Source of the DNA: a virus
DNA length: 27,640 bases
Direction: 5' to 3' (one strand)
IMG/VR virus record: IMGVR_UViG_3300009151_000301
Coordinates: 1 to 27,640 of that record
How positions within the stretch are numbered: position 1 is the first letter of the stretch; the number at the start of each line of letters is the position of its first letter. Position numbers and translations under genes: made by a program. This document shows, piece by piece, positions 1 through 27,550 of the stretch. The notes below the pieces were generated by a model. The model was not told the origin of the DNA. It saw only the letters and a list, made by a program, of their open reading frames with translations, and searched no databases.

Positions 1-3000
1 GAACTGCACCGAAAGACATCGTACGCATAGGAGCGGAAACATCATCCAATGTTGTGCTCAAATCCAAACCATATTTTTCTGGTTGTTTGACAGCTAGTGC
101 GGCTAATAGTTTGTGTGGTTCAAATGATGCTGATGATTTGATATTATCTCTTTTTTCTCTTAACTCCTTGAGGGCCTCAACTTTTGCAGCATATTCTGGA
201 TCGGTTTCTGCTTTTTTATTATCTATTCTGGAAATACCTACAGTTTTAATTTGTTGTTCTATATCAGCTAATTTAACGCCTTGTGTTTGTTTGACTTCTT
301 CTATGATTGAAGGAAGTATTTTACTTCTGTTCTGAATTCTCCCTATATTTCTCGAAATTAGATCATAAACTCCAGGACTCAATACCTTTTGTAATTCTCC
401 AAGATTGCCTTCTTTTATAAGGTCACGAACCATCGTTCCACTAATACCACCAGTTCTCTCTATATTCTTAACTTTATATCCAGCTGTTTTATATTTTTCT
501 GTTTCTTTTGGATCTTTATCAGCCACAAATGTTGTGCTACCTTTAGCTGGTACTAATACTTTGCGGCGTTCTCCTGGTTCAGAGAGGTCGAAAGCTTGAG
601 GAACTTCAAAGTCTCTTGGTTTTGGAAGCACAGTGGCTCCACGAGCACCAGCACCAGCTTTTGCCAATAAAACTCTAGTATCTTGATCAAATATTGCTGT
701 TCTATAGGATTGCTCTTTTCCAGGGACTATTCCTTCGTTGGATCCAACCATATAAATGAAATCTTCTGGGGGTATGCCCATTGCGGCTGCCGCATCCAGA
801 ATACTTTCATGACCAGCGGTCATTGGAGAATAACCTCCCCATGTAAATCCTATTTTCTTTTTAACCACATCAACCAGTTCATCTCCCTGTTTTCTGCGTA
901 ATCTGCCACTCTCAGAGCGACCTAAAACAGTAGATCTATTACCAAGTCTGTCTGATAATAAAGCTTCACTGACAGCGGTATCTGTTGCAACATTGGTTGT
1001 GGATCCAGGTTTACGATTTTCTAAACCTATACCACTAATGTCTCTTCCAACTCTACGAGATCTAACTCCTTCTCTTTCCTCTTTAGTAGTAGAGCTTAAA
1101 GTATATGTTCTGTCTGTCTCTCCAAAAACGTTATCTAATTTATCTTTTGAAACACTACTACTTAAAACTAAAACCTCAGTAGCTCTTTGAATATCTTCTG
1201 GAGATAATATTGGGAATCTTTCAGTTTGTCTTAAAGTTCCACTATCTGTTCCTTGGCCTCTTGCTAGTGTTGTTTTACCACTACCAGCAACACCATATAT
1301 TGCTCTTAATTTATCTAGACTACTTTCTTTTCTTGCTTGTATTGCTAGCTGTGTTAAATGATCAGTATACAGTCTAGGACCGGTCATTCCGGTGGCTTCC
1401 ATACCCTTCTTGACAACGGCTTCATTATCAGGATTAGCAATAACGTCATAATCAATATATCCAACTTTTCGTTGAGCTACTCCACCGTCTGCAAATTTTT
1501 GTGCTTTCCCTCCACGGCTTAACATTTTTACAGCCCAATCCATATTGAGCGATTCAAGAAGATTTCCACCTTCTGTACTATTATCGTTAGCCTCTATATT
1601 TTTTACTTTAAATTGAGAATTTCTTGGTAGAATATATTCTGATTCAATATCATAATCGTCAGCATAATTTTCATCGGCTTTGCCCTTACCGTAAGAATCA
1701 GAGATAAGTCTCTGGTCTATTTTTCTTGTTTTTGATTTGTCTCTGTTAATTGTTTCTGTCTTAGCTCTTTCTGGACTTAATCCTTTGCTTTTTTTGTTTG
1801 TTTCTATTGTCATCATGCCTGTTCTTGCAAAGCTTTCTGCTGTGGCTGGCACTTCTGAAGTAGATAAGAAAGAAGGTATACTGACAGTTTTTCCAACTAG
1901 TTTTTTGGTATCTTCTAGTTTATTAATTTTTACGCCAGCTGATTCTATAAATAGTTTTTGCTTACTAGCTCCTATACCACTATATAATTTTTCTGGTAAT
2001 GAAAATTGCATAGCAGCATCTAATGATCCAGCAAAATAAGACAATGGCTGATCTACTGCTGGTCCAAGTTTTTTTCTTTTTGTCTTATTCAAACCTGCTA
2101 CATCAGCTAATGACTGACTTAAATCTTCTTTTCTACCCAAAGCGGGATTAAGAGCTCCGTCTAAGCCTATTGCCTGATATGCTCTAATAGTATCTAGCAT
2201 ATCACTAACGCTATAGCCTTTATTAGCAGTTAGATTTTCAACATCTCTACCTTCTAAACTTTTAACTTTATCAATATATTTGACATCATTTTCTAACACG
2301 CTCAAAGGAACATCAACGTATTCTCTGTCTGGATTGTATCTAACTATACTTTTTGGTCCAACCTTATCTATATTTTCTTGTTTATTACCAGGACCCAAAT
2401 TTCCCCTATATGCTTCATTTAATGCTTGTTTAACAACACCCCCATAAACTCCTCTTGTTATTTCATATGTTTTATTTTCTGCAATTAACGATTTAAGATG
2501 ATCTGAAATGTTAGATGGAGCTTTTGGTAAAGTTATTTCTTTCTCAACTTCTTTTCCCTTTTGTGGTTCTTTAGCAGCTAGGAACTTTTGGATCGCGTCT
2601 ATTCTTTCTTTAACTTCTTTTTTCCCAGCATCTTCCATGAAAGGGGCCGATTTACTGAATGTGCTAATTGGAACCTTTCTTTGAAAACCAAATAACTCCA
2701 ATGTAGAATCAAGTAATCCTAGTTCGTCTTTAAGTTTATTAATGGGTTGCTGCTGCATTCTTTTAACCCAGCCACCATCTGCAAATTTCTGATAAGCATC
2801 AGGATGATCAAATAAATACTCATAAAATTTATGTTTAGATTCTGCTGCACGATAATAATCAATATTTCCTACTTGAATATCATCTATTTTATCTTTTCTT
2901 GCTTCTGTAAATTGAGATAGTAATTTTTGTTCTGATGATTTGATCTTATATCTAAATAATTTACTAATTAAAGTCTCTGGTTCTTCTTCAACAGATCTAA

Positions 3001-5179
3001 ATTTAACTTCTGCGGGGGCTTTGCCTCTTTTTCTTCTAACATCAATAGGGAAATTGCCTCCTGCAACAGATTCTAACTGATCGTCTGAATGAGCTACAAT
3101 ATAGTCTTCAAAAGCTGATCCCCACCTCTTTTCTGCGCTTTTCCATAGGCTTGCTTGTGGATTCCATTTTCTTTTATTAGAACCCTTACCAAAATAAACA
3201 TCTAGATAATTTTGTTTATTTTCTTGGGTTAGTTCTAAATCTCTATATGAGCTTTTTCCTCCAGCAGACTCATTAGCAATAGCTTCAGATCTACTAATAA
3301 TTTCTTTAAAATCTTTTGGCCCAAGATTTGGTTCTATTTTATTAATTTTACCAGTAACTTTATCATCTAGTTCTATGTCTTTTTTCTTTTTAGCAAATTC
3401 AAAAATAGTCTCGGGACCACCTGCTTTTGCCAACTGCTCCACTGTAAAGGTTTCTATTTTCCCACCACTACCATATTTATTCATGCTATGTAATTTATTA
3501 ACGCCCATAGCTTTTACGGCTGCTTTACGAACAACAAACTCTCCGGGAGTAAGCATTGCCGGAACACTATCACTATCTCCTACTCCAGGAACCAAACCTC
3601 CGGTAGCAAATCCTTTCTTTGAAGAATCTTTACCTCCACCAGATAGTCCTTCATATAATCCTCCGGCAAATCGGGATATTGCTTTGGCTCCTTGTACAGC
3701 AGCAATGGCAGTAAACATTGGTAGCAAGCCTTTAGCAGCCCCGACAACCTTGATTAAGGCGCTTGTTAGCTGCAAAGCTCCAGTAACCATTGTTTGAAAA
3801 GTATTAGACGATCCTATATCTCTGAATAGTGCTAAAAATTCTTCTCTTGTTTTGGCAATTTGATTAGCTAATGATAGTTGTGCTTTGGCAGCATCTGTGG
3901 CTAGCGAGCCTTGTCCCTGTTGAGCAACCGACAATGCTTGTTGTGCAGTAGAGAATTCTTGGATCAAAGGGATAACTTTGCCAATCTGTCGGAAACCACC
4001 AAGTTCTTCAATGATTTTGGAAAATTTAACATCTCTAGGGTCTAATCTTGATAGTCCTTGAGAAAGTAATTCTACCGATTTATAAGCTCCAACAAATTTA
4101 CCGTCAAGATTTTGTAGATTAACTCCATATTCCTTAAGAGCATCAATAGTACTTTCTCTTTGAATTCTAGTAAATATTGTTCTTAAACCTGTTGCAATAG
4201 TTTCTGCGCTTTCACGAGTTGTGGCTCGTACGCTAGTAAATACTGCAATAAATTCATTTAGAGCGTCTGTTCCTTCACTAACTCCTTTGCTTGCTGTAGC
4301 AAACACACCACCGGTTCTTTGAATGGCAGTAATAATGTCGCTGGCTTCTACAGCAAACTTAGCAGCTACTGAGTTGACCGCGCCGAGTGCTTTTTCCAGG
4401 TCGCTAGCACTAATATCAAACTGTCTCATCAAAGCAATAGATCCTTCGACCGTTTCATTCATGCTATCAAAAGATGGAGCTAGCGAACTTAATGCTAATG
4501 CTTTAAGGGCTTTTTCTGTATCTCTAGCACTCAAGCCTGCCTGTGCTAATGTAGAAGCAATATCCACCAACTCTGCTGATGATGTTCCAAGACCAGCAGA
4601 TAAACTAGTAATTACTCTGCCCAAAGATTTTAATCCTTCAGCACTTTCTCCAGTAACTTGCTGTAGTTTAACAAACTCTTTATCAAAAGAGATAAATTCT
4701 GATGTTCCTTTACCAACAGCACTAACTAGTCCATAAATAACACTTGTAACACTGCTAAATGCAGCAAATCTTCTTACCGCCAAACCAGCTTGCTTGCCGA
4801 ACTCTTGCATACTAGAAGAAGATTCTTGTATTGCTTGAGATGTCGCTGCTTGAGTACTAGATAGATTTTTAGCAGCTTGGTTGGCTTGGTTTAATTGATT
4901 ACTATATTGACTAACAGAATTACCCTGGCTCATGGCTGAAGTAAATTTGGATACGGCCGTTGCTGCCGCTGTTGCTGATACTTGGGTGTCTTTAAATGTT
5001 TGATTAAGAGATTTTAAAGAGGCATCCAACTGTGATACATTCTTGGCCGCATTAGGATCAAGAGTAAACTTAACTGTAGTATTGATATTCCCAAGTTGAT
5101 TTTTAATACTGGATACTATTGATCCAATATTAGATGGTCCCTTGAGATTTAGTTGTGCTGTTAAATTAAATGCTGCCAT
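1..5179 (-). CDS. Giant multidomain tail tape measure protein (partial, C-terminus beyond left edge)
   Basis: Tape measure proteins set tail length and can pass into the cell with the DNA. I translated the minus strand from the ATG at 5179 (AGGGA about 9 bases upstream) and found an open frame to the window edge: 1,726 codons, no stop in the stretches checked. Residues 1-520 look like a TP901-type tape measure: Ala/Ser/Gln-rich helices, a QQVTGES motif with LAQAG-type helices (about 170-215), and a hydrophobic stretch near 470-510. Residue 523 starts GFATGG, followed by the VPGxGDSDSVPAMLTPGEF motif typical of tape measures. Beyond it come enzyme-like modules listed separately: nuclease (640-760), ADP-ribosyltransferase (950-1190), P-loop (1275-1430) and nucleotidyltransferase (1435-1625), separated by QKFADGG at 797 and 1227. 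It follows the tube and tail-assembly genes, the usual place. Tape measure identity is very likely; module functions are inferred from motifs. Confidence 0.93.
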   Translation of the reverse strand, partial: MAAFNLTAQLNLKGPSNIGSIVSSIKNQLGNINTTVKFTLDPNAAKNVSQLDASLKSLNQTFKDTQVSATAAATAVSKFTSAMSQGNSVSQYSNQLNQANQAAKNLSSTQAATSQAIQESSSSMQEFGKQAGLAVRRFAAFSSVTSVIYGLVSAVGKGTSEFISFDKEFVKLQQVTGESAEGLKSLGRVITSLSAGLGTSSAELVDIASTLAQAGLSARDTEKALKALALSSLAPSFDSMNETVEGSIALMRQFDISASDLEKALGAVNSVAAKFAVEASDIITAIQRTGGVFATASKGVSEGTDALNEFIAVFTSVRATTRESAETIATGLRTIFTRIQRESTIDALKEYGVNLQNLDGKFVGAYKSVELLSQGLSRLDPRDVKFSKIIEELGGFRQIGKVIPLIQEFSTAQQALSVAQQGQGSLATDAAKAQLSLANQIAKTREEFLALFRDIGSSNTFQTMVTGALQLTSALIKVVGAAKGLLPMFTAIAAVQGAKAISRFAGGLYEGLSGGGKDSSKKGFATGGLVPGVGDSDSVPAMLTPGEFVVRKAAVKAMGVNKLHSMNKYGSGGKIETFTVEQLAKAGGPETIFEFAKKKKDIELDDKVTGKINKIEPNLGPKDFKEIISRSEAIANESAGGKSSYRDLELTQENKQNYLDVYFGKGSNKRKWNPQASLWKSAEKRWGSAFEDYIVAHSDDQLESVAGGNFPIDVRRKRGKAPAEVKFRSVEEEPETLISKLFRYKIKSSEQKLLSQFTEARKDKIDDIQVGNIDYYRAAESKHKFYEYLFDHPDAYQKFADGGWVKRMQQQPINKLKDELGLLDSTLELFGFQRKVPISTFSKSAPFMEDAGKKEVKERIDAIQKFLAAKEPQKGKEVEKEITLPKAPSNISDHLKSLIAENKTYEITRGVYGGVVKQALNEAYRGNLGPGNKQENIDKVGPKSIVRYNPDREYVDVPLSVLENDVKYIDKVKSLEGRDVENLTANKGYSVSDMLDTIRAYQAIGLDGALNPALGRKEDLSQSLADVAGLNKTKRKKLGPAVDQPLSYFAGSLDAAMQFSLPEKLYSGIGASKQKLFIESAGVKINKLEDTKKLVGKTVSIPSFLSTSEVPATAESFARTGMMTIETNKKSKGLSPERAKTETINRDKSKTRKIDQRLISDSYGKGKADENYADDYDIESEYILPRNSQFKVKNIEANDNSTEGGNLLESLNMDWAVKMLSRGGKAQKFADGGVAQRKVGYIDYDVIANPDNEAVVKKGMEATGMTGPRLYTDHLTQLAIQARKESSLDKLRAIYGVAGSGKTTLARGQGTDSGTLRQTERFPILSPEDIQRATEVLVLSSSVSKDKLDNVFGETDRTYTLSSTTKEEREGVRSRRVGRDISGIGLENRKPGSTTNVATDTAVSEALLSDRLGNRSTVLGRSESGRLRRKQGDELVDVVKKKIGFTWGGYSPMTAGHESILDAAAAMGIPPEDFIYMVGSNEGIVPGKEQSYRTAIFDQDTRVLLAKAGAGARGATVLPKPRDFEVPQAFDLSEPGERRKVLVPAKGSTTFVADKDPKETEKYKTAGYKVKNIERTGGISGTMVRDLIKEGNLGELQKVLSPGVYDLISRNIGRIQNRSKILPSIIEEVKQTQGVKLADIEQQIKTVGISRIDNKKAETDPEYAAKVEALKELREKRDNIKSSASFEPHKLLAALAVKQPEKYGLDLSTTLDDVSAPMRTMSFGAV
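305..877 (-). other. HIGH-superfamily nucleotidyltransferase-like domain inside the tape measure protein
   Basis: About residues 1435-1625. The strand GFTW leads into GGYSPMTAGH (G1448 to H1457), matching the G-x-[FY]-x-P-x-[HT]-x-G-H signature of NMN adenylyltransferase, phosphopantetheine adenylyltransferase and cytidylyltransferases. ISGTMVR at 1579-1585 matches the second family signature (I-S-[ST]-T-x-[IV]-R), and an LSPGVYDLI-type helix follows as in NMNAT-like enzymes. Both nucleotide-binding signatures are intact at the expected ~120-residue spacing, so activity is plausible. Substrate cannot be decided from sequence: NMN, FMN, phosphopantetheine or a sugar phosphate are all possible. 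Confidence 0.8.
890..1357 (-). other. P-loop NTPase/kinase-like domain inside the tape measure protein
   Basis: About residues 1275-1430. A hydrophobic strand (RAIY) runs into GVAGSGKTT (G1296, K1302), a clear Walker A motif, so nucleotide binding is likely. The segment that follows (FPILSPEDI, then ATEVLVLSSSV, then DRTYTLSSTT) resembles small-molecule or zeta-toxin-like kinases more than AAA+ or helicase proteins: I see no Walker B with acidic pair and no arginine-finger pattern. It is followed closely by a nucleotidyltransferase domain, a kinase/adenylyltransferase pairing also known, in the opposite order, from the NAD salvage enzyme NadR. Substrate unknown. Confidence 0.65.
1610..2332 (-). 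other. ADP-ribosyltransferase-like domain inside the tape measure protein (Arg motif degenerate)
   Basis: About residues 950-1190 of the tape measure protein. R-S-E class ADP-ribosyltransferases have an Arg strand (LYRG), an STS strand and an ExE motif. Here LYSGIG is at 1065-1070, FLSTSE at 1104-1109 and ESEYILP at 1179-1185. The spacing of about 39 and 73 residues fits the family. The Arg that normally contacts NAD+ is Ser1067. STS (S1106, T1107, S1108) and the two Glu (E1179, E1181) are intact; E1181 would be the catalytic Glu. The family transfers ADP-ribose from NAD+ to proteins or other targets. With Ser for Arg the enzyme may be weak, altered or inactive. The fold call is fairly secure, the activity is not. 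Confidence 0.75.
2900..3262 (-). other. PD-(D/E)XK nuclease-like domain inside the tape measure protein
   Basis: Domain covering about residues 640-760 of the tape measure protein. A Trp/Lys-rich helix leads to FEDY with E691. A beta segment F-P-I-D713 follows, then ten residues, then A-E724-V-K726-F. This is the E...D-x(n)-E-x-K arrangement of the PD-(D/E)XK nuclease fold, with a basic stretch (RRKRGK) between D and E. Families with this fold cut or repair DNA using Mg2+. The match rests on motif order and spacing that I read, not on a profile search. A structural, inactive nuclease-fold remnant is possible, though all four key residues are present. Confidence 0.72.
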
Positions 5180-5263: not shown

Positions 5264-6139
5264 TTACGCTGCGGGTGGTGTGACACTATCTGTTGTTGTA
5301 GGTGGAGCATCGCTGGACACAACAGTGTCAGGCTTAACATCCTCGTCAAGAACGATGGGGTTCCCACTATCATCCAGGAATGGTTTCGCTTCAACAACAT
5401 AGTCTCCTTGTGCGTCTACTTTATTGCCAAACTTGTCAACAAAACTACCCTGATCATCAATATATCGTCCAGTCTCATCGATTAGTCTTCCTTCACTATC
5501 GATTAGTCGTCCTTTCTTATCCACCAATCTTAGTTTGTCGTCAACAAACCTGTACTTTTTCAAAAACTTATTTTCTGGCAATGTTGACTCATAATCATTA
5601 TCAAGACCATATAACATATTAGCCAAATTTTGAGCAGCTAATACTGAAATTGATTCTCCTGCACGATTAAGGTAGTCTTCCATGTTCGAAAAATATGTTT
5701 GCTTAGTATCATTATACACCAAACATGCTGATACAAGATAGTTAAACCTAGCATTATCTGCTTGACCTTCAGCACTATGATTATCCAGAGAAGTTCTAAC
5801 ACTAATAAGATCTCGAATCTCTTCTCGTGTTCGGCGCATCTTAACTGCTAGGTCTTTAGCCTCATTTAAACTGAAGCCACCCTTTGCTAGTTTCTTTTCT
5901 CCGTCTAGGAGTTCTCTTTGAAGTGCCGTGAACTTGGCCTGTTTCTCGTCATTCCATAGTCCTTGGTCCTGTAGCAGATCGTCTAGCTTCGCCCTAACCA
6001 CACTCTTCGACTTTACAGCATCGGTAAAGGCTTGATTATATACCTTTTGTCCTTCTCTCTGGTCTGTTAGGGAGGGGCTACGAACTAAAAATTCCTTCTC
6101 AACACCATCTACGGTCGCAGTAAAAGTTTTTGTCTTCAT
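5264..6139 (-). CDS. Tail-assembly-type protein with heptapeptide repeats, 291 aa
   Basis: Function not proven. It lies directly upstream of the tape measure gene, where tailed phages encode tail assembly chaperones that wrap the tape measure during tube building. The N-terminal ~180 residues are charged and helical (DQREGQKVYNQAF, KLDDLLQDQGLW, AEGQADNARFNYLVSA). Residues 197-245 hold seven consecutive 7-residue units of the form R-L-I-D-x-x-G. The C-terminus (250-291) is acidic and Pro/Thr-rich, probably disordered. The ATG overlaps the preceding stop as ATGA, so the two genes are translationally coupled. The repeat block could be a flexible beta-type stalk or a partner-binding surface. I saw no slippery sequence for the programmed frameshift common in this gene class. 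Confidence 0.85.
   Translation of the reverse strand: MKTKTFTATVDGVEKEFLVRSPSLTDQREGQKVYNQAFTDAVKSKSVVRAKLDDLLQDQGLWNDEKQAKFTALQRELLDGEKKLAKGGFSLNEAKDLAVKMRRTREEIRDLISVRTSLDNHSAEGQADNARFNYLVSACLVYNDTKQTYFSNMEDYLNRAGESISVLAAQNLANMLYGLDNDYESTLPENKFLKKYRFVDDKLRLVDKKGRLIDSEGRLIDETGRYIDDQGSFVDKFGNKVDAQGDYVVEAKPFLDDSGNPIVLDEDVKPDTVVSSDAPPTTTDSVTPPAA
5405..5551 (-). repeat. Heptapeptide (21-base) tandem repeat block
   Basis: Seven units of seven residues in the 291-aa protein (residues 197-245): RFVDDKL, RLVDKKG, RLIDSEG, RLIDETG, RYIDDQG, SFVDKFG, NKVDAQG. Asp at position 4 is invariant and Gly at position 7 is kept in six of seven. The repeat is clearer in protein than in DNA, so it is an old duplication kept by selection on protein shape. 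Confidence 0.85.
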
Positions 6140-6450
6140 TGATCTTCTCCGTTTTTAAAATAAAACTTATATCGATATTTCTGTTTAAAAGCACTAGTCT
6201 TAGGTCCTGGTTTTGAGTTCCTATCCAAAAAATCTTCTAGCTCATCTAGAGCTAGTCGAATCTGATTATTGCCATTATTTAATATAGAAGTACGAGTCTG
6301 TTCCCACAAGTTCTCATATTCTAATCTATTTTTATTATCTTCTTCCCATAAATGACCAAAATATTCTTCAAATTTAGCTAAAGATCCTATCATAGTAGTC
6401 TTTAGTCTGGTCTCTATGTTCTTAAAGATTTCTTGTTCTTCGTTGTGCAT
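6136..6450 (-). CDS. Small helical tail-region protein, 104 aa
   Basis: Function unknown. The protein is mostly helical and charged, with MIGSLAKFEEYFGHLWEED near residue 20-40 and an ILNNGNNQIRLALDELEDFL helix near 55-75, ending in a basic and aromatic tail (KQKYRYKFYFKNG). It is the middle of three tail-assembly-type genes before the tape measure gene; it begins 1 base after the stop of the 348-aa gene and its stop overlaps the next start as ATGA. A role as accessory tail chaperone is suggested by position only. Confidence 0.8.
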   Translation of the reverse strand: MHNEEQEIFKNIETRLKTTMIGSLAKFEEYFGHLWEEDNKNRLEYENLWEQTRTSILNNGNNQIRLALDELEDFLDRNSKPGPKTSAFKQKYRYKFYFKNGEDQ

Positions 6451-6451
6451 A

Positions 6452-7498
6452 TTATGATTTCCTTTGTTTTAGCATAGAATTCAGTTGATTTACAGCTTCT
6501 CTTTTAACATCTGGCAAATCTAAATCGTCTACTTCCTTAGCTTCTCGAATCATGGCAAATTTTTCTTTCATTCTATGCATACCTTCTCCACTATTCAAGC
6601 CAAACACATTTTCAGCATCTTCTTCATTATTTGATAGTACAAATACTTCTTGAGCATTTCTTAATCTTGGATTAGCCATGTCAATAGACTGTTCGGTTTT
6701 TTGTTTTTCTATTTTTCGCTTTTGATGAATCATCCAACCATCTAAGAAATCGTCATCATTAATCACGGTCTGATCAGGACATTCTGGGTGAGCATATACG
6801 CTATCATACATTTTACTAATATTGACTAAACTTTTTTGTTCATCAGTCCAGTCAGCCACCTGAGAGCTAAAAACATTATCCTTATTAGCGTTCCAGTAAG
6901 ATCTCCAAGCATTACTTCGGGCTATGTTTCTAAAATCTGCCATACTAATGGTATGTTCATTAATAGCATGAATTAAATTATTAAAATACTGATAAGATTT
7001 AGAGTTATTATTGGCTGTATCTTTAAAAACAAGTTTATTATTTTTGTACAACGTATTACAGATAAGGAATTCATTTTTGATTGATGATGCGTAACCTTCC
7101 AAAGTATTAGAATGGAAATCATTCTTGGTCTTTAAAACTCTACCCAGCTGACCTTCCATAGATCTTATTTTGGGTCTTATATTATTAACCATATCTTTAT
7201 TCATGTAGTTTTTAAATATATCCACTTTCAAATTATCTATTGTTTTTTCCAGTTGAGAGATTACTTTTTCCGTATTTTTTTCCCATAATCCTAAATTAAT
7301 CATAATCCTAATTAAATATTCTTCTCTGATCCATTCATTATATTTTTCATCGTTCAGTATATTATCATACAATATGGACGCTTCGTATTTTAGAACATTA
7401 GAAGCATATCTGAGTTCGTATCTTTCGTTATCATAAGAAAAGATAAGATAGCCACAAAGGATTCTATAAAGATAGAGTTCAATGTCAGCATCATTCAT
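6452..7498 (-). CDS. Tail-region protein, candidate tail assembly chaperone, 348 aa
   Basis: No catalytic motif recognised. The sequence is helix-rich with Tyr/Asn/Lys-rich composition; a conserved-looking segment (WTDEQKSLVNISKMYDSVY, about 215-235, then an acidic INDDDFLDGWMIHQKRK stretch) is followed by a charged C-terminus with coiled-coil character. The gene comes after the tail tube gene and before the tape measure gene, the interval that encodes tail assembly chaperones in most long-tailed phages, so that is my tentative reading. Its ATG overlaps the stop of the 50-aa gene (ATGAATGA), so translation is coupled. There is no signal peptide or membrane segment. Confidence 0.82.
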   Translation of the reverse strand: MNDADIELYLYRILCGYLIFSYDNERYELRYASNVLKYEASILYDNILNDEKYNEWIREEYLIRIMINLGLWEKNTEKVISQLEKTIDNLKVDIFKNYMNKDMVNNIRPKIRSMEGQLGRVLKTKNDFHSNTLEGYASSIKNEFLICNTLYKNNKLVFKDTANNNSKSYQYFNNLIHAINEHTISMADFRNIARSNAWRSYWNANKDNVFSSQVADWTDEQKSLVNISKMYDSVYAHPECPDQTVINDDDFLDGWMIHQKRKIEKQKTEQSIDMANPRLRNAQEVFVLSNNEEDAENVFGLNSGEGMHRMKEKFAMIREAKEVDDLDLPDVKREAVNQLNSMLKQRKS

Positions 7499-7643
7499 CT
7501 GATTCCTTGGGCTGTTTGAGTTCCCTTATTTCTTGATCCTTGGATTTTAGTTGCTGTTGTAGAATGTCTATAACTTTGTGAGAATTATAAACATCCACAT
7601 ACAGCCGTCCTACCATATTAAAAAGTTCGTCATTATTATCCAT
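7491..7643 (-). CDS. Small coiled-coil protein, 50 aa
   Basis: A short ORF reading MDNNDELFNMVGRLY, then a helical VIDILQQQLKSKDQEIRELK segment with heptad spacing, so probably a short coiled coil. The ATG at 7643 has GAGGA 7 bases upstream, a good ribosome binding site, and the stop TGA at 7493-7491 overlaps the start of the 348-aa gene, typical of a coupled phage operon. Its place between tail tube and tail-assembly genes suggests a small tail-assembly factor. Function unknown; existence is supported by RBS, overlap and tight fit between neighbours. Confidence 0.72.
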   Translation of the reverse strand: MDNNDELFNMVGRLYVDVYNSHKVIDILQQQLKSKDQEIRELKQPKESDE

Positions 7644-7683
7644 TTTAGTCCTCGAACCATATCCCTATAATTATAATTGTCTA

Positions 7684-8706
7684 TCAGACAGAGGCAAAAC
7701 TACCAGCAACAGTAACAGTAAGGGAGTTAAATGTCTGGTAGCTATATGTTACCTGAGCATTTCCGCCACCAGTATCTCCACCAGTATAGTTAACGCTTGT
7801 TAGCTTGTTCTTGGGTCCAAGATTAATGCTCATGGTATCTCCAGTACCACTACCACAAACAGCAATAGTAATCTGACGGTCTGTTAGATTCTTGAAAGCT
7901 GAACAAGCACCGTAACTGATCATGTCGTCAGCTGTTACTTTATCTCCGTCTGTTGCTGTGATAACAAACTCTGATGTGATCTCTAGTGGAAACTTGACAT
8001 AACGGCAGTATGGAGCCATCTTGCCAAGTTCATTGATGGCTTCTCTTCCAAGATTAGCTTTTACATTGATACTCTGAAAGTGAGGGCTTCCACCACCGGC
8101 TGGATTTGGAATATCTCCTGGAATTGTTGAACCAGCAATATTGACATTCAATCTGCGAATAGCAGTCTTGGCAGTTTGTGGAGTACTTTCATTGAATCCA
8201 CCCGTCATACTAGCAGTCCATTTCTTGCTGTTGCCAACAAGGGTGACGTCTTCTGTGGAAAAACCATCTAATGGGAATGTATAGCCAATACTGGACAAAT
8301 ACATGCCTGTGCATTCAACGGCAGTGCTTGTGGCACCTTCGGCGGCAGTTTTGGTATCGTCAAAAATACCTAATTTAAAGTTAACACGATTATTGGCTAG
8401 TGAACCAATACTTCCGCCAGAGCCACCACCGTTTGTTCCACCCATGCATAGCAGATAAAGAGGCATAGTTCCATCAAGAGTTTTTTGTAGTGTAACTTCT
8501 ACTTCAGGAACGCCCTCAACGTTATCATAAAGGTCTTGCTGACCAAGCTCGAATAGCTGGGTTAGATTAAAGTTTGTGGTCATTCCAACACTTTGGAGAC
8601 CCTTGGGAGAAACGTAAGTACCTAGAGTAAAAGTGCCACCTGTTTCAGCCTTAACCGGCTGTAGTTGAACTGATTGTGTTGCGTAATAAATTCTTTTATT
8701 TGCCAT
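7684..8706 (-). CDS. Probable major tail tube protein, 340 aa
   Basis: Probably the tube subunit that polymerises around the tape measure protein. The protein is beta-rich and Gly/Thr/Ser-rich, with few charged helices. Features include VQLQPVKAE near residue 13, FELGQQDLYDNVEGVPEVEVTL near 52-73 (a pattern seen in tail tube proteins, where the early beta hairpin is followed by an E-V-E-V strand), and a Gly-rich loop near 90-100. The gene precedes tail-assembly and tape measure genes, as expected. The start has GGAG 8 bases upstream in a leader (ATATCGGAGA...TAAAATG) almost identical to that of the 942-aa fibre gene. Its own promoter-like motif lies about 90 bases upstream, fitting a need for many copies. 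I infer identity from composition and position. Confidence 0.75.
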   Translation of the reverse strand: MANKRIYYATQSVQLQPVKAETGGTFTLGTYVSPKGLQSVGMTTNFNLTQLFELGQQDLYDNVEGVPEVEVTLQKTLDGTMPLYLLCMGGTNGGGSGGSIGSLANNRVNFKLGIFDDTKTAAEGATSTAVECTGMYLSSIGYTFPLDGFSTEDVTLVGNSKKWTASMTGGFNESTPQTAKTAIRRLNVNIAGSTIPGDIPNPAGGGSPHFQSINVKANLGREAINELGKMAPYCRYVKFPLEITSEFVITATDGDKVTADDMISYGACSAFKNLTDRQITIAVCGSGTGDTMSINLGPKNKLTSVNYTGGDTGGGNAQVTYSYQTFNSLTVTVAGSFASV

Positions 8707-11157: not shown

Positions 11158-12174
11158 TCACTCTTGATAAGTAATAATTAATTTCCAATTATCTATCAGA
11201 CCTGATACAGAAGCATCATTGTCACAGACGTGCAAAGACCATATTCCAGAGGATGGGACATAACCTTTGAGGTGGCCAAAAGAACTTAATAGATTTTCAT
11301 TATTAAGAGCCCCCAATGTTATGGAGCCATTTGATATGGATATTGGGATTCTTGCTTCTGAACATCCTGAATTATCGCAGATTGTCATTGGAATACTATT
11401 GTCAAATCTTGTGCTGTTTGTTTTATCTATAATCTTACACAATCCACCATTTTTTGTATTAGATACATTAGTCTGAGGTAAAGCCCTATCGGACAACATA
11501 AAACTAAAACCAGGAACATAATTAGATATTTTGTGGTGGGCAAATAGTAGTATTTTATCTCCAGAAGGAGGAGCTAGAAACATGGTTAGGTCTTGTGGAG
11601 AATTATGGTTTAATCCATTTATTCCTATTTCTACATTTTCTATTGGTCTACTATCCATAATAGTGATAGAGCTTGTGCTGGTCGCATTATCTACTATATA
11701 AATTCTAGGACCATTATATATTGACGAATCAAAAGCAGAACAATTTATTGTGCAGGCATCTAGGATTTGACCTTCTATAGGCTCTCTAATATCAAATGCT
11801 GGTATTGTGGTATTTCTTTTGACTATGGTAATGGTTCCTTGGGCTAGTCTATATCTTTTAAGTCCACTACCAGAATATTGTTCATTAGGTTCCTGTAAAT
11901 CAAGATCATAGACTGCGGTCTCAAAAGAGTAATTATTTGTAATGTGAGCTGGGATATTTAAAACAATATCTCCATTACTATAAGCGATCAAAGAATAGTC
12001 TGATGTTTTAGTAATATTATCAAAAGTATATATTTGACCAGTATTACTAACAAATTTAAATAATACATACCAGTTGGTCATATTAACACTAGTGTTATTT
12101 TCATCCAGATATCTAAATGTAATCTGAAAATCAGAACCTTGCTCTAGGAGAAAATTGTGTGTTGCGGCAGGCAT
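11158..12174 (-). CDS. Virion protein with BppU-like N-terminus and proprotein-convertase P-domain, 338 aa
   Basis: Two parts are visible. Residues 1-125 match the whole 134-aa protein encoded at 21672-22076: both start MPA, then EQG(S/T), N(M/I)TNW, IPA, YDL(D/E)L and a closing GT strand with R. Such domains are common near phage fibres and are probably virion-anchoring beta sandwiches. Residues 157-336 match the proprotein-convertase P-domain: I-x-I-N-G-L-N-H, then DLTMFLAPPSGDKILL, a loop with C265/C271, and GIWSLHVCDNDASVSGLIDNWKL at the end. P-domains act as folding and binding domains in secreted proteases; no protease domain is attached here. It lies just after the head-tail adaptor gene with AAGGA before the ATG. 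Likely a virion surface or decoration protein that binds the host envelope. Confidence 0.85.
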   Translation of the reverse strand: MPAATHNFLLEQGSDFQITFRYLDENNTSVNMTNWYVLFKFVSNTGQIYTFDNITKTSDYSLIAYSNGDIVLNIPAHITNNYSFETAVYDLDLQEPNEQYSGSGLKRYRLAQGTITIVKRNTTIPAFDIREPIEGQILDACTINCSAFDSSIYNGPRIYIVDNATSTSSITIMDSRPIENVEIGINGLNHNSPQDLTMFLAPPSGDKILLFAHHKISNYVPGFSFMLSDRALPQTNVSNTKNGGLCKIIDKTNSTRFDNSIPMTICDNSGCSEARIPISISNGSITLGALNNENLLSSFGHLKGYVPSSGIWSLHVCDNDASVSGLIDNWKLIITYQE

Positions 12175-12806: not shown

Positions 12807-12878
12807 TTATAATCCAATAGTCTCATCTAAAATATATTCCTCAGAATTGGGTGCAATAGCTAAATGTTTATTGTTCAT
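12807..12878 (-). CDS. Candidate 23-aa mini-ORF coupled to the 279-aa fibre gene
   Basis: Reads MNNKHLAIAPNSEEYILDETIGL and stops with TAA. The ATG overlaps the stop of the fibre gene as TAATG, so a ribosome could re-initiate; the only RBS-like sequence is GAAG. A small hairpin (ATTGGA/TCCAAT, 12794-12816) follows. It could be a peptide gene, a chance ORF, or the remnant of a longer one. No homologue can be named. Confidence 0.3.
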   Translation of the reverse strand: MNNKHLAIAPNSEEYILDETIGL

Positions 12879-13717
12879 TAAAAATTAATTCTTCTATAAG
12901 AGCCAAGGTCTGTTCCTGCTCCAAAAGAAGAGACATATGTTGTTCCAGTATTAGTTGCTAATGTGAATGTTTTATTTGCGGTTACTACTTCTGAGTATGT
13001 TGTGATCCTATAGCTATAAACTCCTGCTATATATATTCTGATGTCTATAAACGATAATGGATTATTAATAGGAAGGATTTGATTAAATCTTATCTTAGAT
13101 CCAGAAGTTCCAGAAAGTGTGACTCCATTACCAGAAGAAGAATTGGTTCCGGAAGCTATTGTTAGAGTCGTATCAAATACCGATGTGGGTGTTGGGGTTG
13201 GGGTTACGGTGGGCGTAACTGTTATTGTTGGTGTTATTGTTGGTGTTATAGTTACTGTTGGAGTAGGGGATGAGACTATCCAAGTTGATAGGGCTGATCT
13301 TTTCCAAGTATTGTTGTCTGTAGCAACATAGAAATAATCGCTATCATAAGCAACGTTACCAGCAACTCCGGATGCTGTTGGTGAACTGGGAACAGTAGAC
13401 CATGCAAAGCTTGCTGAAGCTCCTCCGTTGCTTGAATTAATAGTATAGGCCCCATTGACAGAACTTATAGTGATATTATTTCCGGCGGATATGCTCTTTA
13501 CTGGTAAAACACCACTAATAGCACTATTAAAATCAGTAATATTTGATGAGCTTAAATTAATACTACCTAAACTAGCCCAATTTGATACTCCATCACCAAT
13601 TTTAAAAATCTTATCGGTCAGATCATATCCCGGCTCACCACTAGCTAATACTGGATTGGCCAAAGTCCATGCAGCAGAAGTTCCTTTGCGTATTTGTATA
13701 AGATCATTTACGGCCAT
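12878..13717 (-). CDS. Short fibre with Mtd-type N-terminal module, Pro/Thr stalk and beta C-terminus, 279 aa
   Basis: Residues 1-50 carry the module found at the start of many phage receptor-binding proteins: IQIRKGTSAAW, then GEPGYD and FKIGDG; the same module starts the 942-aa fibre. Residues 57-86 (NITDFNSAISGVLPVKS, then AGNNITI) also match that fibre. Residues 118-145 (GNVAYDSDYFYVATDNNTWKRSAL) form a second small domain. Residues 151-178 are a Thr/Pro stalk, and 181-279 a beta-rich tip. A virion-anchored adhesin is likely, the tip contacting the host. AGGA lies 9 bases before the ATG and a GGTGTA-type motif about 40 bases upstream. It is the last sizeable gene of the fibre cluster. Confidence 0.85.
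   Translation of the reverse strand: MAVNDLIQIRKGTSAAWTLANPVLASGEPGYDLTDKIFKIGDGVSNWASLGSINLSSSNITDFNSAISGVLPVKSISAGNNITISSVNGAYTINSSNGGASASFAWSTVPSSPTASGVAGNVAYDSDYFYVATDNNTWKRSALSTWIVSSPTPTVTITPTITPTITVTPTVTPTPTPTSVFDTTLTIASGTNSSSGNGVTLSGTSGSKIRFNQILPINNPLSFIDIRIYIAGVYSYRITTYSEVVTANKTFTLATNTGTTYVSSFGAGTDLGSYRRINF
13182..13266 (-). repeat. Imperfect Thr-Pro-coding repeat in the 279-aa fibre
   Basis: A run of short degenerate units (GGTGTTATTGTT-like on the plus strand) encoding TPTVTITPTI-type sequence, residues 151-178. It is less regular than the 12-base array in the 749-aa fibre gene but codes for the same type of extended stalk. Confidence 0.75.
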
Positions 13718-18548: not shown

Positions 18549-21377
18549 TTATGGTGTTCCACCATCTATAATAAAGTATTTCAATGTTGTTGCTGGTGTG
18601 GTATTTGATGAACCCAAAAGCTCATTGGCAGATGCATTAAATCGGAGATTATTATTGACGCTTGGTTTAAGATTACCATCTGTACCATTAACAAAAACTA
18701 AATTATTAGTATTAGAACTACTAAGATCAACTTCAATATTATTGGCATTAGTAGCTGTACCACTAAGATCACCAACAAATGACGTGCTACTAACACTACT
18801 TAGTCCTGATACAGAAGTGATGCTTCCTCCAAGACTAACTGATGTTGAACCAATAGTTACAGAGCTGTTAGCTAATTGAGAATTATCGACACCACTAGCT
18901 TTGATACTTACGACGCCAGAAGAAACACTAAAATCTCCACTATCAAAACTAGCAAGACCTTTATCCTGTGTTGAAGCGTTAAGTATATAGCTGTCAATAA
19001 TTCCTGTTACTCGACCATAAGAATCTGTAGTTACACTAGAAACTACTGCTTGAGCAGAGGTCGCTCCGGCTGGGAGACTGCTAACAGCGCGAGCAAGCGT
19101 TACAGTATCAAGATCAATATTATCAGCATTAACAACTATACGACCAGCTGTACCAACAGCATCTATAGTATTTCCATTCTTTGTTAAACCAGCACCGGCG
19201 GTTATCTGACCTGCCCCGGAGAATTGAGCAAATGCTAGGCTGGTTGTGCCGAGAGTGATGGTGTCGTTTGTTGTCAATACCCACCCACTATCAGCATTAA
19301 CAGTACCTTCAGACACGAAAGTAAATAGTCCAGTAGTAACTTCAGCATCAGAATCAGCGTCGGATGCTCTACTCCAAGAACCAGCAGCTACCGTATAGAT
19401 ACCATTTTGACTACCAGTATTCTGATTCTTTACTAATACTCTATCGCCAGCTATAACGGTAACCCCGTCAACAGTTTGGGTTCCAGATAGTGTTATATTG
19501 GCTGTTGTAGCAACTCTAACACTTGCTTTAACATCAAGACCCATTCGGGCAGCATCTACGTATGCTTTTGTGGCAGCATCTTGAGCACTAACCGGATCTG
19601 CTAAACTAGTAATCTTAACACTATTGAAGGATACGTCACTTGTAGGAACACTCATTTGATCCAAACGATTGGTTCTTACAGCAGTATTGAAGTCATTAAT
19701 ATTACTAGCAACTAAACCACTACCACCAACAGTAAGATTACCATTAATGGTCACTCCACTCAGTGTGGGATTATTTGCAAATACTAATGATCCTGTTCCT
19801 GTTTCATCACTAATAACTCCAGCTAGTTGTGAAGATGTTGTCGAAGCAAACTGAGCTAAGGTTCCTGCTACAGCAGCGCGACTGGTGTCTGTTGGATGAA
19901 CGTGGTCAGCACGAGCTGCTGTTGTTGCAGTACCCACTGCTGCGATACTGTCCATCAACGGAGTTGAGCTACTTAGACCGGTGATACTATTAAAAGACGT
20001 ACCTGTTGCTACTCCGATGTTTGGAGAAACAAGCGTGGGACTATTAGAAAATACTAAATTGCCTGATCCAGTTTCATCGCTAACAAGAGTTGAGAGATTG
20101 TTACTACTTGGTGTTAGTAAAAAGGTTCTAGCGTTAGCTGAAAGATCTGTAATCTCTGCTAGTTGAATAGTAGGATCACTTAAACTAATAACATAATTAC
20201 CGCTATTATGTGTTAAAGATATACCACTACCAGCTGTTAAAGAGCTACTAATTGTAAGAGTATTAGTTCCACTACTATATACGATATCAACACCGCTACC
20301 ACCAACAATACTTGCGCTAACAGCATTATCAATAAGAGCATTAACGCCACTAGCAAAGTTAGTAATTAAAGATGTTGGAATACCAGTCACACTAACAGTA
20401 TGATTACCAGAAACACTAACAATACCAATTCCAGAGCCTTGAACTAGACTCTTCACGCCTAATAGTCCACTTACTGCTGTGTTAAAATCAGTAATATTAG
20501 AGCTTGTATGAGTATGTCCATTCAAACTAACTGCCGTATTACCAACAGTTAAAGTATTAAAATTACCAGTTCCACTTGGAATACTAACTGATCCTGTAAA
20601 AGCTGCTCCAGCCAATGCTGCTCTTGTTGTATCTGTTGGATGAACGTGATCTTCTCTCGAATATTTTTTGGAAGTTCCGACAGCAGCAGTTCCGTTCATT
20701 AAAGGATTGCTTGAAGAAGCTTGTCCAATAACAAATGCTGTACTAGCAATTTGTGTTGTGTTCGTATCAGCAGCAGCAGTTGGAGCTGTTGGAGTTCCAG
20801 TCAATGCTGGACTATTTAGTGGAGCATATACTCCGCTTACCAATCCACTAACACTAGTATTAAAATCTCCAATATAAGAACTAGTTAGTCCAGTAACCGA
20901 GATTGTTTCTACCTTACCAGTATTGTCGTAGCTGGCTTTAATTCCACTTACTCCAGTAATTGTAGATCCAATTAGATCTTTAACAGTATCAGAATTAACA
21001 GGCGAACTAATAACAAAACCTTTATCTCCTGTTGGAGTTATAGTAATATTATTTCCGGCAATAATGCTCTTTACTGGAAGTAGTCCGCTAACTGCGCTAT
21101 TAAAATCGCTAAGATAGCTAGAACTTAATCCAGTAACTGATACTGTTATTGTTCCTGAAGTTGAAGCATAAGATACATTTATACCACTAGTTCCTACAAA
21201 ATCAGCTCCGGTAATATTTGCCCAAGATAAACTTCCCCAGAGACTAGTGCCATCGCCTATCTTAAATTTTTTAATTGTTGTATCGTAGCCAAGCTCTCCT
21301 TGAGCTAGTGGGCTATTAGAAGCTGCCCATAGGCTTGATGATCCTCTTCTGAGCTGAATAGTAGTTAAAGCTGGCAT
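18549..21377 (-). CDS. Long tail fibre with Mtd-type N-terminal module and cyanophage-type fibre domain, 942 aa
   Basis: Likely a long receptor-binding or side fibre. Residues 1-50 form the Mtd-type module (IQLRRGSSSLW, GELGYD, FKIGDG). From there the protein is a Ser/Thr/Gly-rich beta fibre with recurrent units: a DFN(S/T)AVSGLL-type motif at about 91, 171, 297 and 562; DHVHPTDT(S/T)RA at 243 and 491; and SDETG(S/T)G-LVF at 433 and 523. Residues 590-760 carry a well-known phage fibre segment (ADPVSAQDAATKAYVDAA, then GLDVKASVRVATTANITLSG and SGWVLTTND). The protein ends IIDGGTP; no endosialidase chaperone is visible. The leader ATATCGGAGA and ATG match those of the tail tube gene. High confidence for a fibre, low for the receptor. 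Confidence 0.9.
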   Translation of the reverse strand: MPALTTIQLRRGSSSLWAASNSPLAQGELGYDTTIKKFKIGDGTSLWGSLSWANITGADFVGTSGINVSYASTSGTITVSVTGLSSSYLSDFNSAVSGLLPVKSIIAGNNITITPTGDKGFVISSPVNSDTVKDLIGSTITGVSGIKASYDNTGKVETISVTGLTSSYIGDFNTSVSGLVSGVYAPLNSPALTGTPTAPTAAADTNTTQIASTAFVIGQASSSNPLMNGTAAVGTSKKYSREDHVHPTDTTRAALAGAAFTGSVSIPSGTGNFNTLTVGNTAVSLNGHTHTSSNITDFNTAVSGLLGVKSLVQGSGIGIVSVSGNHTVSVTGIPTSLITNFASGVNALIDNAVSASIVGGSGVDIVYSSGTNTLTISSSLTAGSGISLTHNSGNYVISLSDPTIQLAEITDLSANARTFLLTPSSNNLSTLVSDETGSGNLVFSNSPTLVSPNIGVATGTSFNSITGLSSSTPLMDSIAAVGTATTAARADHVHPTDTSRAAVAGTLAQFASTTSSQLAGVISDETGTGSLVFANNPTLSGVTINGNLTVGGSGLVASNINDFNTAVRTNRLDQMSVPTSDVSFNSVKITSLADPVSAQDAATKAYVDAARMGLDVKASVRVATTANITLSGTQTVDGVTVIAGDRVLVKNQNTGSQNGIYTVAAGSWSRASDADSDAEVTTGLFTFVSEGTVNADSGWVLTTNDTITLGTTSLAFAQFSGAGQITAGAGLTKNGNTIDAVGTAGRIVVNADNIDLDTVTLARAVSSLPAGATSAQAVVSSVTTDSYGRVTGIIDSYILNASTQDKGLASFDSGDFSVSSGVVSIKASGVDNSQLANSSVTIGSTSVSLGGSITSVSGLSSVSSTSFVGDLSGTATNANNIEVDLSSSNTNNLVFVNGTDGNLKPSVNNNLRFNASANELLGSSNTTPATTLKYFIIDGGTP

Positions 21378-21411: not shown

Positions 21412-21675
21412 TTATGGGGTACCGCAGTCGAAGTTGTAATGGTCTAAATAATGGTCTAGTCCACTGATCCTAGATACGTCTAAATTTCCAATAATTTTAC
21501 TAAAAGGAATATCTGGTAAATCACCAACTCCAATAATAGCTGATCTACTTAGTATACTTACACCAGCAGACGAGAATCTTTCTATTTCCACTACTCCAAC
21601 AGTATCTAAAAAACTAGTTTCTATAGAAATAATATTGGGTTGAGTATTTTCAACTATTACAGTAAAGTCGTTCAT
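21412..21675 (-). CDS. Small fibre-associated protein, 87 aa
   Basis: No recognised catalytic motif. The N-terminal half is beta-like (FTVIVENTQPNIISIETSF) and the C-terminal half reads like a short fibre linker (GDLPDIPFSKIIGNLDVSRISGL...), ending FDCGTP; the next gene downstream ends IDGGTP. The ATG at 21675 overlaps the stop of the 134-aa gene (ATGA), so I prefer it to a TTG nine bases upstream at 21684. Probably a small structural or adaptor protein of the fibre complex. Confidence 0.75.
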   Translation of the reverse strand: MNDFTVIVENTQPNIISIETSFLDTVGVVEIERFSSAGVSILSRSAIIGVGDLPDIPFSKIIGNLDVSRISGLDHYLDHYNFDCGTP

Positions 21676-25330: not shown

Positions 25331-27550
25331 TTAAGCCTCAGTATAAGATTTTTCGATCAAAGAATTATACACCAGAGAATAAAAAGAAGACTTAAGTTGT
25401 TTAATCTCGTCAACTGTTAGATCTCTATTGATTTCTGTTTTAATGGGTTTTAGCCAATTATTATAAGCCCCAATAACCGTGGCGTGTTCTTTGGCATGAA
25501 TGTTGGCTAATGCTTTGGTCATTAGGTCGGGGTCAATTGTGCAGGTTGGTGTGAGACTGAATAAGATTTTGGTTTTAACCGAATCCATTTCCTTACTCTC
25601 TGCTTTAGATAAACTCCTCAAATTTTTCTTGTTATAAAAGTCTAATAAGATTGGATTAAGCATATCATTAATTTTATCTTGTGCTTCATTAGCCCATAGC
25701 ATTAGGCTAGCTCCAGTCTGGGGCGAGAACTTTTTGGTTTTTCGGGGTGCAGAATCCTTACTTAATTTAGGTCTGCCTTGTCCGGGGATACCTGGCAATG
25801 ATTCTGGCGAATCATTTGCCAACTTCGTTGAAGGACCAGACTGAGGAGGGATTTTTTGTTCTAAAGCTGTTTTTTCTCCGCTTTTCTTTTTCTCTAGTTC
25901 TAGACCAACTTGGCTAGGAGTTACGGTACCTGTTTGTAAAGCAATCTTCTTGAGAGCATTTTCAACTTGAGGATCATTCCACGGTCCAGCTTTTGGAACC
26001 ATTCTTTCTGAGTTTCTTTCTCTGGTTTCTCTATTGAGTCTACTCTTTTCCATGTCTGGATCTATGCCGAACTTGGTTTGTAATAGCTCATCACTAATTA
26101 CATTCCTATCTGCTAGTTGAATTAATAATGCTTTCTCAGCATCTTCATTACTTAAGTCCATTCTATCAAATTCTATTTTAGCTCCATATTTAAAGCCCAT
26201 AGCTTTTTGTACTAGCTCGATCTCTTTCTCCCAAAAAGAAATAAGCATATCTCTACCGTACTGAAGTCTTTGTGTGAGAGTTTTGAGGGATATAAAATTG
26301 TTGGTTGTTCCGGCTGCTCCGAATGTTCCTGTTAATGTAGGAGGAATTCCCAAACCAGCATATACGCTATTCATGTGGGGAACATATTTGCCTTCTCCTA
26401 AAAATTGATGAACACTTGTTTTAGATTCTATGAGTTCAATATCTGGTCCCCATACTAAATCCATTGTGCCTCCACCAACATTATTACCCAAAATCTGAGC
26501 TAGCTTTGCTGTGGCTGCTTTTGTAGGAGCAATCTTGTGTTCTAGACTTCCTAATTTAAAAATACGAATATTAGAGATAGCCCCGTCAAGAGCTGCCATA
26601 TCTGCTAGTTTAAGTTTTTCTATAACTGTAATATCATCCATTATAGAATAGACCATAGGATATGCCCATGTTTGCCAATCGTCTTTTTTGTAGTGAAATA
26701 CTAAAATCTTTTGTGGATCTAGAGGATATGGTTTTTTTGCTTTTGCTGCTTGAACTATCTGAGGAGGTAGATTATTAATGATTTCTTTTTCAGCATCGGA
26801 CTGAGGAGAGTTGATCATTTTTCTCAAAATAGCAGGTAGTGTTAATTCATATCTTTTTTGAGAAACAAAAGAAGAAAGTGGACCAGCAGCAACATCTACA
26901 AATGACGGATCTATAAAAGTATACTTCCACGGAATTTCTCTTTTTTCTACTTGCACACTATCCATATCAGCTATTTGAAGATCTGGGGAGCTTACTGCTC
27001 TATATAACTTATCTGTAACTTTAAGACTAAGTTTGCCCGTTTGTCTATTTATGACAACGTTACCCGTTTTATAAAGATTGTTAAGGAATCTTTCGCTGCG
27101 TTCCTTTCCTCCTATTTTCTTAAACCACTGTCTGTAAAATCGTTCTATCCTTTTATTTTTATGACAGATATTAATCCCCTGTACAGCAAAATCTCCCATG
27201 AGATCTATAACATTTTTTACTAATCCAACCTTTTGGTAAATCTCATCAGATCTGCGCATAATATCTTTGATGCGCTTGGGTACTGCTTCGTCTGGTCTAA
27301 AGAAGTCATAGTCACTTCTTGTTAGTCCTGGCCTACCTCCTGTGCTACCATCAAGATTACTATAATCTACCCTGTAAAATCTACCAGCCTTGGATCGTTG
27401 TACCATTGTAAATTCGTCTAAAGATTCAGACGAAGTTTTTAGAGCTTCCTGTTTGCTGGCTAGGTCATCTCCCCAAGCAATATAGGCTTGATCTGGGATA
27501 TGTGGTGCTGCATCTTGAATGATGGGATTTGTGGGCTGTTTATTGGCCAT
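25331..27550 (-). CDS. Portal protein, 739 aa
   Basis: The portal is the dodecameric ring at the capsid vertex through which DNA enters and leaves. This protein is first in the head operon and just upstream of the protease. Its body shows portal features: an N-terminal RRSDEIYQKVGLVKNVIDLMGDF helix near 100-122, a NVVINRQTGKLSLK segment, an IDPSFVDV strand, HYKKDDWQTWAYPMVYSI near 290-307, and a helix with LGIPPTLTGTFGAAGTTNNF near 395-415, which fits the portal crown and clip region. The C-terminal third is Pro/Ser/Lys-rich and then helical. At 739 aa it is long (portals are usually 400-750 aa). The start has only a weak RBS (GTGGA). Confidence 0.88.
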   Translation of the reverse strand: MANKQPTNPIIQDAAPHIPDQAYIAWGDDLASKQEALKTSSESLDEFTMVQRSKAGRFYRVDYSNLDGSTGGRPGLTRSDYDFFRPDEAVPKRIKDIMRRSDEIYQKVGLVKNVIDLMGDFAVQGINICHKNKRIERFYRQWFKKIGGKERSERFLNNLYKTGNVVINRQTGKLSLKVTDKLYRAVSSPDLQIADMDSVQVEKREIPWKYTFIDPSFVDVAAGPLSSFVSQKRYELTLPAILRKMINSPQSDAEKEIINNLPPQIVQAAKAKKPYPLDPQKILVFHYKKDDWQTWAYPMVYSIMDDITVIEKLKLADMAALDGAISNIRIFKLGSLEHKIAPTKAATAKLAQILGNNVGGGTMDLVWGPDIELIESKTSVHQFLGEGKYVPHMNSVYAGLGIPPTLTGTFGAAGTTNNFISLKTLTQRLQYGRDMLISFWEKEIELVQKAMGFKYGAKIEFDRMDLSNEDAEKALLIQLADRNVISDELLQTKFGIDPDMEKSRLNRETRERNSERMVPKAGPWNDPQVENALKKIALQTGTVTPSQVGLELEKKKSGEKTALEQKIPPQSGPSTKLANDSPESLPGIPGQGRPKLSKDSAPRKTKKFSPQTGASLMLWANEAQDKINDMLNPILLDFYNKKNLRSLSKAESKEMDSVKTKILFSLTPTCTIDPDLMTKALANIHAKEHATVIGAYNNWLKPIKTEINRDLTVDEIKQLKSSFYSLVYNSLIEKSYTEA

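Follow-up and report, generated by a model that had tools for sequence, protein, structure and literature searches.

Introduction

Enzymes that accompany phage DNA into the host cell have been described or proposed in several settings. Polyvalent proteins, found in phages and conjugative elements, are multi-enzyme polypeptides thought to be injected together with the DNA (Iyer et al., 2017, PMC5512222), and ADP-ribosyltransferases (ART) are carried by the virion in the case of T4 Alt and other proteins (PMC5512222, PMC7824862). In Thermus phage P23-45, the 5,002-aa protein gp96 is a tape measure protein (TMP) fused to the virion RNA polymerase, which has been proposed to work at the entry pore (PMC10770324). 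In phage lambda, labelling during injection has placed the TMP next to ManZ, a protein of the inner membrane (PMC13190303). Here, a locus is described from a 27,640-base virus record, the whole of which was analysed and is referred to as the window, in which a TMP and four enzyme-like modules share one reading frame.

The tape measure gene

The gene occupies positions 2..5179 on the minus strand, as a stop-free ORF from its ATG, and encodes the N-terminal 1,726 aa of a giant TMP. No ORF end lies inside the window, with the 3' end having been lost where the ORF runs off the record. Complete genes were found uninterrupted in 12 distinct relatives, with products of 4,355-7,733 aa, several times the usual size of a tail ruler, so the part visible in the window is probably no more than a quarter to a third of the full protein, counted from its N-terminus. 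The N-terminal part (TMP-N, aa 1-520; 3620..5179, minus strand) matches TIGR01760 over aa 149-484 (E 6.6e-26, 91.2 bits against a cut-off of 28.8) and PhageMin_Tail (PF10145) over aa 193-394 (E 3.3e-22, 79.8 bits against a cut-off of 33.2), and several PHROG tape-measure families also match the protein. Its mean column identity is 78% in an alignment of 13 sequences. An earlier note on this DNA had read the first half of the ORF as a tape measure, which these profiles confirm, and had found no stop in the frame carrying the modules, which holds for the 1,726 aa and for the relatives alike. An assembly or frameshift artefact is ruled out, since about 65 distinct proteins have the same type of uninterrupted ORF. 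In one relative (G007, aa 1-135; L008:7989-8400), extra short repeats (SIRQ..IRRQLG.IN..VN) precede TMP-N, as if the ruler had been extended by duplication.

Relatives and organization of the slot

Relatives of the window protein were taken from IMG/VR, and overlapping pieces of 12 distinct phage contigs were joined, yielding the complete ORFs mentioned above. When the search was widened by means of the TMP-N alignment, at least 80 loci were detected which, pooled with the first set, correspond to at least 65 distinct proteins, the shortest complete one having 1,958 aa. Common to all relatives are TMP-N and a repeated linker of about 50 aa with the signature DTVPAMLTPGEFV, of which 244 copies occur among 65 proteins, with 4 to 9 in each of the 12 complete long ones. 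Linker 1 of the window (aa 524-573, starting with FATGGLVPGVGDSDSVPAMLTPGEFVVRKAAVKAMG; 3461..3610, minus strand) is one of these copies. The motif has also been detected once in a tail-region protein of cyanophage S-SM2 and is therefore not specific to the giant TMP family. A conserved core of about 900 aa is seen in the long relatives, and a related C-terminal block in some members only.

The stretch from linker 1 to the linkers preceding the core, designated slot 1, could be delimited in 56 proteins, where it measures 150-2,210 aa with a median of about 940. All enzyme modules recognised in these 56 proteins lie inside slot 1 and none elsewhere, although many of the proteins are truncated at about 3,850 aa, so that good coverage of the second variable region is limited to the complete proteins. 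The slot holds varied combinations of PD-(D/E)XK nuclease, SNase-like nuclease, ART, P-loop NTPase and HIGH-family adenylyltransferase modules; the window has the PD-(D/E)XK, ART, P-loop and adenylyltransferase set. Short module boundaries of the sequence QKFADGG occur in the window at aa 797-803 (2771..2791) and aa 1227-1233 (1481..1501), both on the minus strand, and a similar short motif is found at other module edges. Some relatives possess a short slot only, and 25 of the 65, some of them short fragments, contain no recognised enzyme, which indicates that the cargo is not essential or that other types of cargo went unrecognised. Over other slot-1 stretches, and over the greater part of the second variable region, Pfam returned nothing usable. 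At the start of that region, just past the core, EF-hand-like motifs scoring slightly under the Pfam cut-off were observed in G009 (L010) at aa about 3960-4130. The real length of the gene, the linker repeats and the exchangeable enzyme set in one fixed slot all go beyond what the earlier note had described.

Enzyme-like modules

The presence of all four enzyme-like stretches, in the order previously proposed, is confirmed by motifs conserved across relatives and by profile and fold matches. The first, a PD-(D/E)XK nuclease-like module (aa about 645-790; 2810..3247, minus strand), carries E691, D713 and K740. Nuclease and ART domains were aligned separately, and across 24 nuclease sequences with a mean column identity of 21%, D713 and K740 are invariant and E691 near-invariant, with no other such columns. 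The core of the AlphaFold model of this module has a pLDDT of about 90. Comparison of the model by VIA-align placed Hjc as the top match and recovered PD-(D/E)XK nucleases as most of the matching solved structures, with Z at most 5.2; a Foldseek search with the same model gave no significant match. In other members, the same first slot position is taken by SNase-like modules, most copies of which keep the DGD and R...D..E elements and several the GRP element; Pfam gave a sub-threshold SNase match. Of the 20 proteins that combine two or more module types, 18 begin the series with a nuclease.

The ART module consists of an N-terminal part (aa 804-1060; 2000..2770, minus strand), with full-length counterparts in G001 and G007 and most of it present in L152, followed by the ART-like core (aa 1061-1233; 1481..1999, minus strand), which includes S1106-T-S1108 and E1179-x-E1181. 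The Pfam family ADPrib_exo_Tox matches this core with E 6.5e-5, 0.6 bits below the cut-off, and a profile of the family recovers known ARTs such as iota toxin Ia, CdtA and Lmo0066, among others. The STS and ExE motifs are conserved, with S313, E386 and E388 invariant in alignment A7. Nonetheless, the motif-1 arginine is replaced by Ser, Ala or Thr (Y[S/A/T], aligned to LYRG of Lmo0066) in all 14 sequences, with S1067 standing in the window where Arg is usual. The module is for this reason filed as an ART relative and not as a canonical R-S-E enzyme; the ADP-ribosyltransferase proposed earlier is thus upheld by STS/ExE and the profile matches, short of this arginine. Two ART modules were observed within one slot in L134 (aa 957-1090 and 1566-1709).

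The P-loop NTPase or kinase-like module (aa 1238-1443; 851..1468, minus strand) contains the Walker A motif GVAGSGKT at aa 1296-1303, a GxxGSGK-type motif in which the GK, including the lysine, is invariant among the relatives that have the module. Profile searches gave P-loop similarity and nothing more specific, and Foldseek gave weak matches to zeta toxin (6epi, probability 0.98, E 0.019) and AvrRxo1 (4z8t, 0.89, E 0.028). The P-loop part of the earlier assignment is therefore borne out by the invariant lysine, while a kinase of the zeta toxin/AvrRxo1 type is weakly suggested by the fold matches to the model.

The last module, a HIGH-superfamily adenylyltransferase (aa 1444-1629; 293..850, minus strand), presents T1454-x-G-H1457 and I1579-S-G-T-x-x-R1585 and is followed by a helical tail (aa 1650-1709; 53..232, minus strand). 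The (T/H)xGH and ISxTxxR motifs are conserved across 26 sequences. Its model is confident and its fold matches NadD/CoaD/NMNAT, with Z 14.5 to NadD, which gives the nucleotidyltransferase of the earlier note a superfamily; viral matches of the module are annotated mostly as cytidyltransferase-like. Structure prediction, which that note had called for, has thus provided a clear fold for the adenylyltransferase and, for the nuclease, a confidently modelled core but the low Z values given above.

Exchange and maintenance of the cargo

Several module orders have been seen, including nuclease-ART-PK-NT, SNase-PK-NT-ART, PK-NT-ART (PK-NT being the P-loop/nucleotidyltransferase, or P-loop/NTase, pair), nuclease only and others. 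Between G002 and G016, TMP-N is 97% identical and P-loop/NTase 43%, whereas between G002 and G005 the corresponding values are 84% and 99%. The window and G007, which differ in module order, share 59% identity in TMP-N, 79% in ART and 33% in P-loop/NTase. In the pairs G009/G012 and G004/G012, the flanks align well and the P-loop/NTase between them is only about 32% identical. Judging from these comparisons, cargo is swapped between near-identical TMPs and the slot is exchangeable. Pairs of ART and P-loop/NTase modules gave dN/dS values of 0.13-0.25, which indicates that the cargo is under purifying selection and is maintained as protein.

The distribution of the modules was also surveyed. In the viral collection, no ORF with a PK-NT match is shorter than 3,000 aa and none with an ART match is shorter than 2,500 aa, and each of the six ART-bearing ORFs checked begins with TMP-N. 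Among 50,697 phage records, no match to the ART and P-loop/NTase modules was found.

Gene neighbourhood and tail type

The TMP gene stands in a structural gene context, with a portal protein gene at 25331..27550 (minus strand; phrog_2739, E 6e-13) and other structural genes in the window. Directly upstream of the TMP lie four genes (5264..8706, minus strand) coding for 291, 104, 348 and 340 aa, which in relatives are of similar size and in the same order, the comparison being one of size and order only. Elsewhere on the minus strand, two structural genes (12878-13717 and 18549-21377) have in common an N-terminal segment of about 50 aa that matches PHROG families of structural and tail-fibre proteins (phrog_697 among others), and the 942-aa product of the second also matches a head-decoration family. 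Two separate genes on the same strand (11158-12174 and 21672-22076) both match phrog_1084, a family of unknown function (E 3e-14 and 4e-10).

Neither tail sheath (PF04984) nor baseplate J (PF04865) was detected in the records of eight relatives, which may be fragments, with the controls positive. The large terminase of one relative is related to those of SPbeta-like and other siphophages, its similarity to that of a Microcystis phage being only 24%. From the sheath and baseplate J profiles together with the terminase, a long non-contractile tail is likely for this TMP family.

Two further observations concern the genomes in which relatives occur. The related 244-kb genome G012 encodes three FGE-sulfatase (C-type-lectin fold) proteins (L027:4590-8096, L031:5677-7224 and L040:16771-18792), whose domains raised the possibility of a diversity-generating retroelement; the absence of any reverse transcriptase match leaves no sign of one. 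TMP-N at 64% identity occurs on a 5.3-kb contig (L164), which may be a wrongly binned phage, of an alphaproteobacterial MAG from Lake Lanier; the host link is uncertain.

Proposed role and alternative explanations

We regard the protein, with a probability of roughly 0.6, as a giant siphovirus-type TMP with a built-in slot of exchangeable enzymes, which would be delivered to the host and be catalytically active there. TMP-N, the core and the C-terminal part would serve tail building and DNA passage through the envelope, and the slot modules, being segments of the TMP, would be carried inside the tube of the virion tail, probably in an incompletely folded state. By analogy with the lambda TMP near ManZ and the P23-45 fusion, they would leave together with the TMP, before the DNA does, and their site of action, from the very start of infection, would be at or inside the inner membrane. 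Putative targets are host or competitor DNA for the nuclease, host proteins for the ART, as for T4 Alt, and NAD-like nucleotides for the P-loop/adenylyltransferase pair. Phage counter-measures to NAD depletion have been described (PMC12774641), and an adenylyltransferase and P-loop module acting on NAD-type nucleotides would fit counter-measures of this kind. A broader proposal, for which the odds are about even, is that the TMP constitutes a general delivery chassis, with a conserved ruler, a fixed slot and recombined enzyme cassettes, through which each phage would inject its own pre-expression effectors, including an NAD-centred set of ART-like and adenylyltransferase modules.

Several points weigh against this interpretation. 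The tail tube is about 4 nm wide, so the modules would be partly unfolded in transit, and the possible misfit between folded enzymes and tube is the main difficulty for delivery. The absence of the motif-1 arginine in 14 of 14 ART sequences is likewise counted against an effector, as are the 25 relatives with no recognised enzyme. Nor was a peptidase able to free the modules revealed by Pfam, which could miss weak domains and was run on the window protein, on G007, on most of G009 and on parts of other relatives.

A different course of events would be that the modules are made within a TMP precursor, removed from it in the course of tail assembly or earlier, and active late in the producing cell, the linkers being cleavage sites and no injection taking place. 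The separation of the blocks by repeated linkers is in keeping with such processing, and the lambda TMP, gpH, is known to lose a C-terminal piece. Late enzymes, however, need no TMP carrier, and slot 1 sits between the conserved TMP-N and core, so that its excision would break the tape into two pieces; this course appears unlikely. It is more doubtful still that the modules are catalytically dead fillers, captured folds that serve not as enzymes but to extend the tape or to bind factors of the host. Such a role would accommodate the Ser, Ala or Thr in place of the motif-1 arginine in all ART members and the relatives with a short slot only, but it leaves unexplained why, amid divergence, conservation is retained in the nuclease E/D/K, the DGD, R, D and E of most SNase copies, the ART STS/ExE, the Walker A and the PK-NT TxGH/IS-T motifs.

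The position of the nucleases allows yet another interpretation, in which they are recombination or homing-type elements that drive slot exchange while the other modules hitch-hike. The first module at the boundary is nearly always a nuclease and exchange is concentrated in the slot, as would be expected of such elements. On the other hand, unrelated folds occupy this same position (PD-(D/E)XK types, and the SNase type, which is usually non-specific), the nucleases are in frame, and many slots vary with no recognised nuclease, making a recombination or homing role very improbable.

If delivery of the enzyme slot, the interpretation preferred here, is correct, tape measures would be effector carriers in addition to their roles as ruler and DNA conduit, and from the slots of uncultured phages one could read off which functions a phage requires within seconds of infection, before its genes are expressed. 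It also raises the physical question of how the enzymes fit the tube, and whether tail length is set by the full protein or by its cargo-free part.

Comparison with known systems

As in polyvalent proteins, several enzymes including an ART are combined in one phage polypeptide for which entry with the DNA is proposed, the window ORF containing two or more conflict-type enzyme domains (PD-(D/E)XK, ART, P-loop and NTase). Recombining cassettes constitute a further likeness, having been suggested in PMC5512222 too. In the present case, however, the carrier is a TMP with a linker-bounded slot, the word "tape" being absent from the text of PMC5512222; no metallopeptidase was recognised, and the nucleotidyltransferase is of the HIGH type and not Pol-beta. 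Polymorphic toxins (PMC3482391) similarly join a constant delivery part to exchangeable toxin-like modules, with the difference that their exchangeable module is C-terminal, whereas the cargo described here is internal, comprises several modules and is followed by linkers and the conserved core. T4 Alt resembles the ART module as a virion-carried ART, a location proposed here by analogy, but Alt is packaged in the head as a protein of its own, in contrast to an ART within a TMP and lacking the motif-1 arginine. With SPbeta-type YomI there is 22-25% similarity in TMP-N, along with the terminase related to the SPbeta group, and a transglycosylase is annotated there in contrast to the slot cargo.

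The earlier note had considered a tape measure with this enzyme set to be new. No description of such a TMP was found in the open-access literature searched, subscription papers and preprints lying outside that search, and to this extent the claim stands; it is qualified by polyvalent proteins and by P23-45 gp96, which is a precedent in being an enzyme-carrying TMP. That protein has a single N-terminal RNA polymerase, as opposed to several exchangeable enzymes placed after TMP-N, and Pfam, applied to the window protein and to parts of relatives, detected no RNA polymerase family. The locus is therefore not quite new in principle, since an enzyme on a TMP and injected multi-enzyme phage proteins were both known; what is new is a TMP with an exchangeable enzyme slot.
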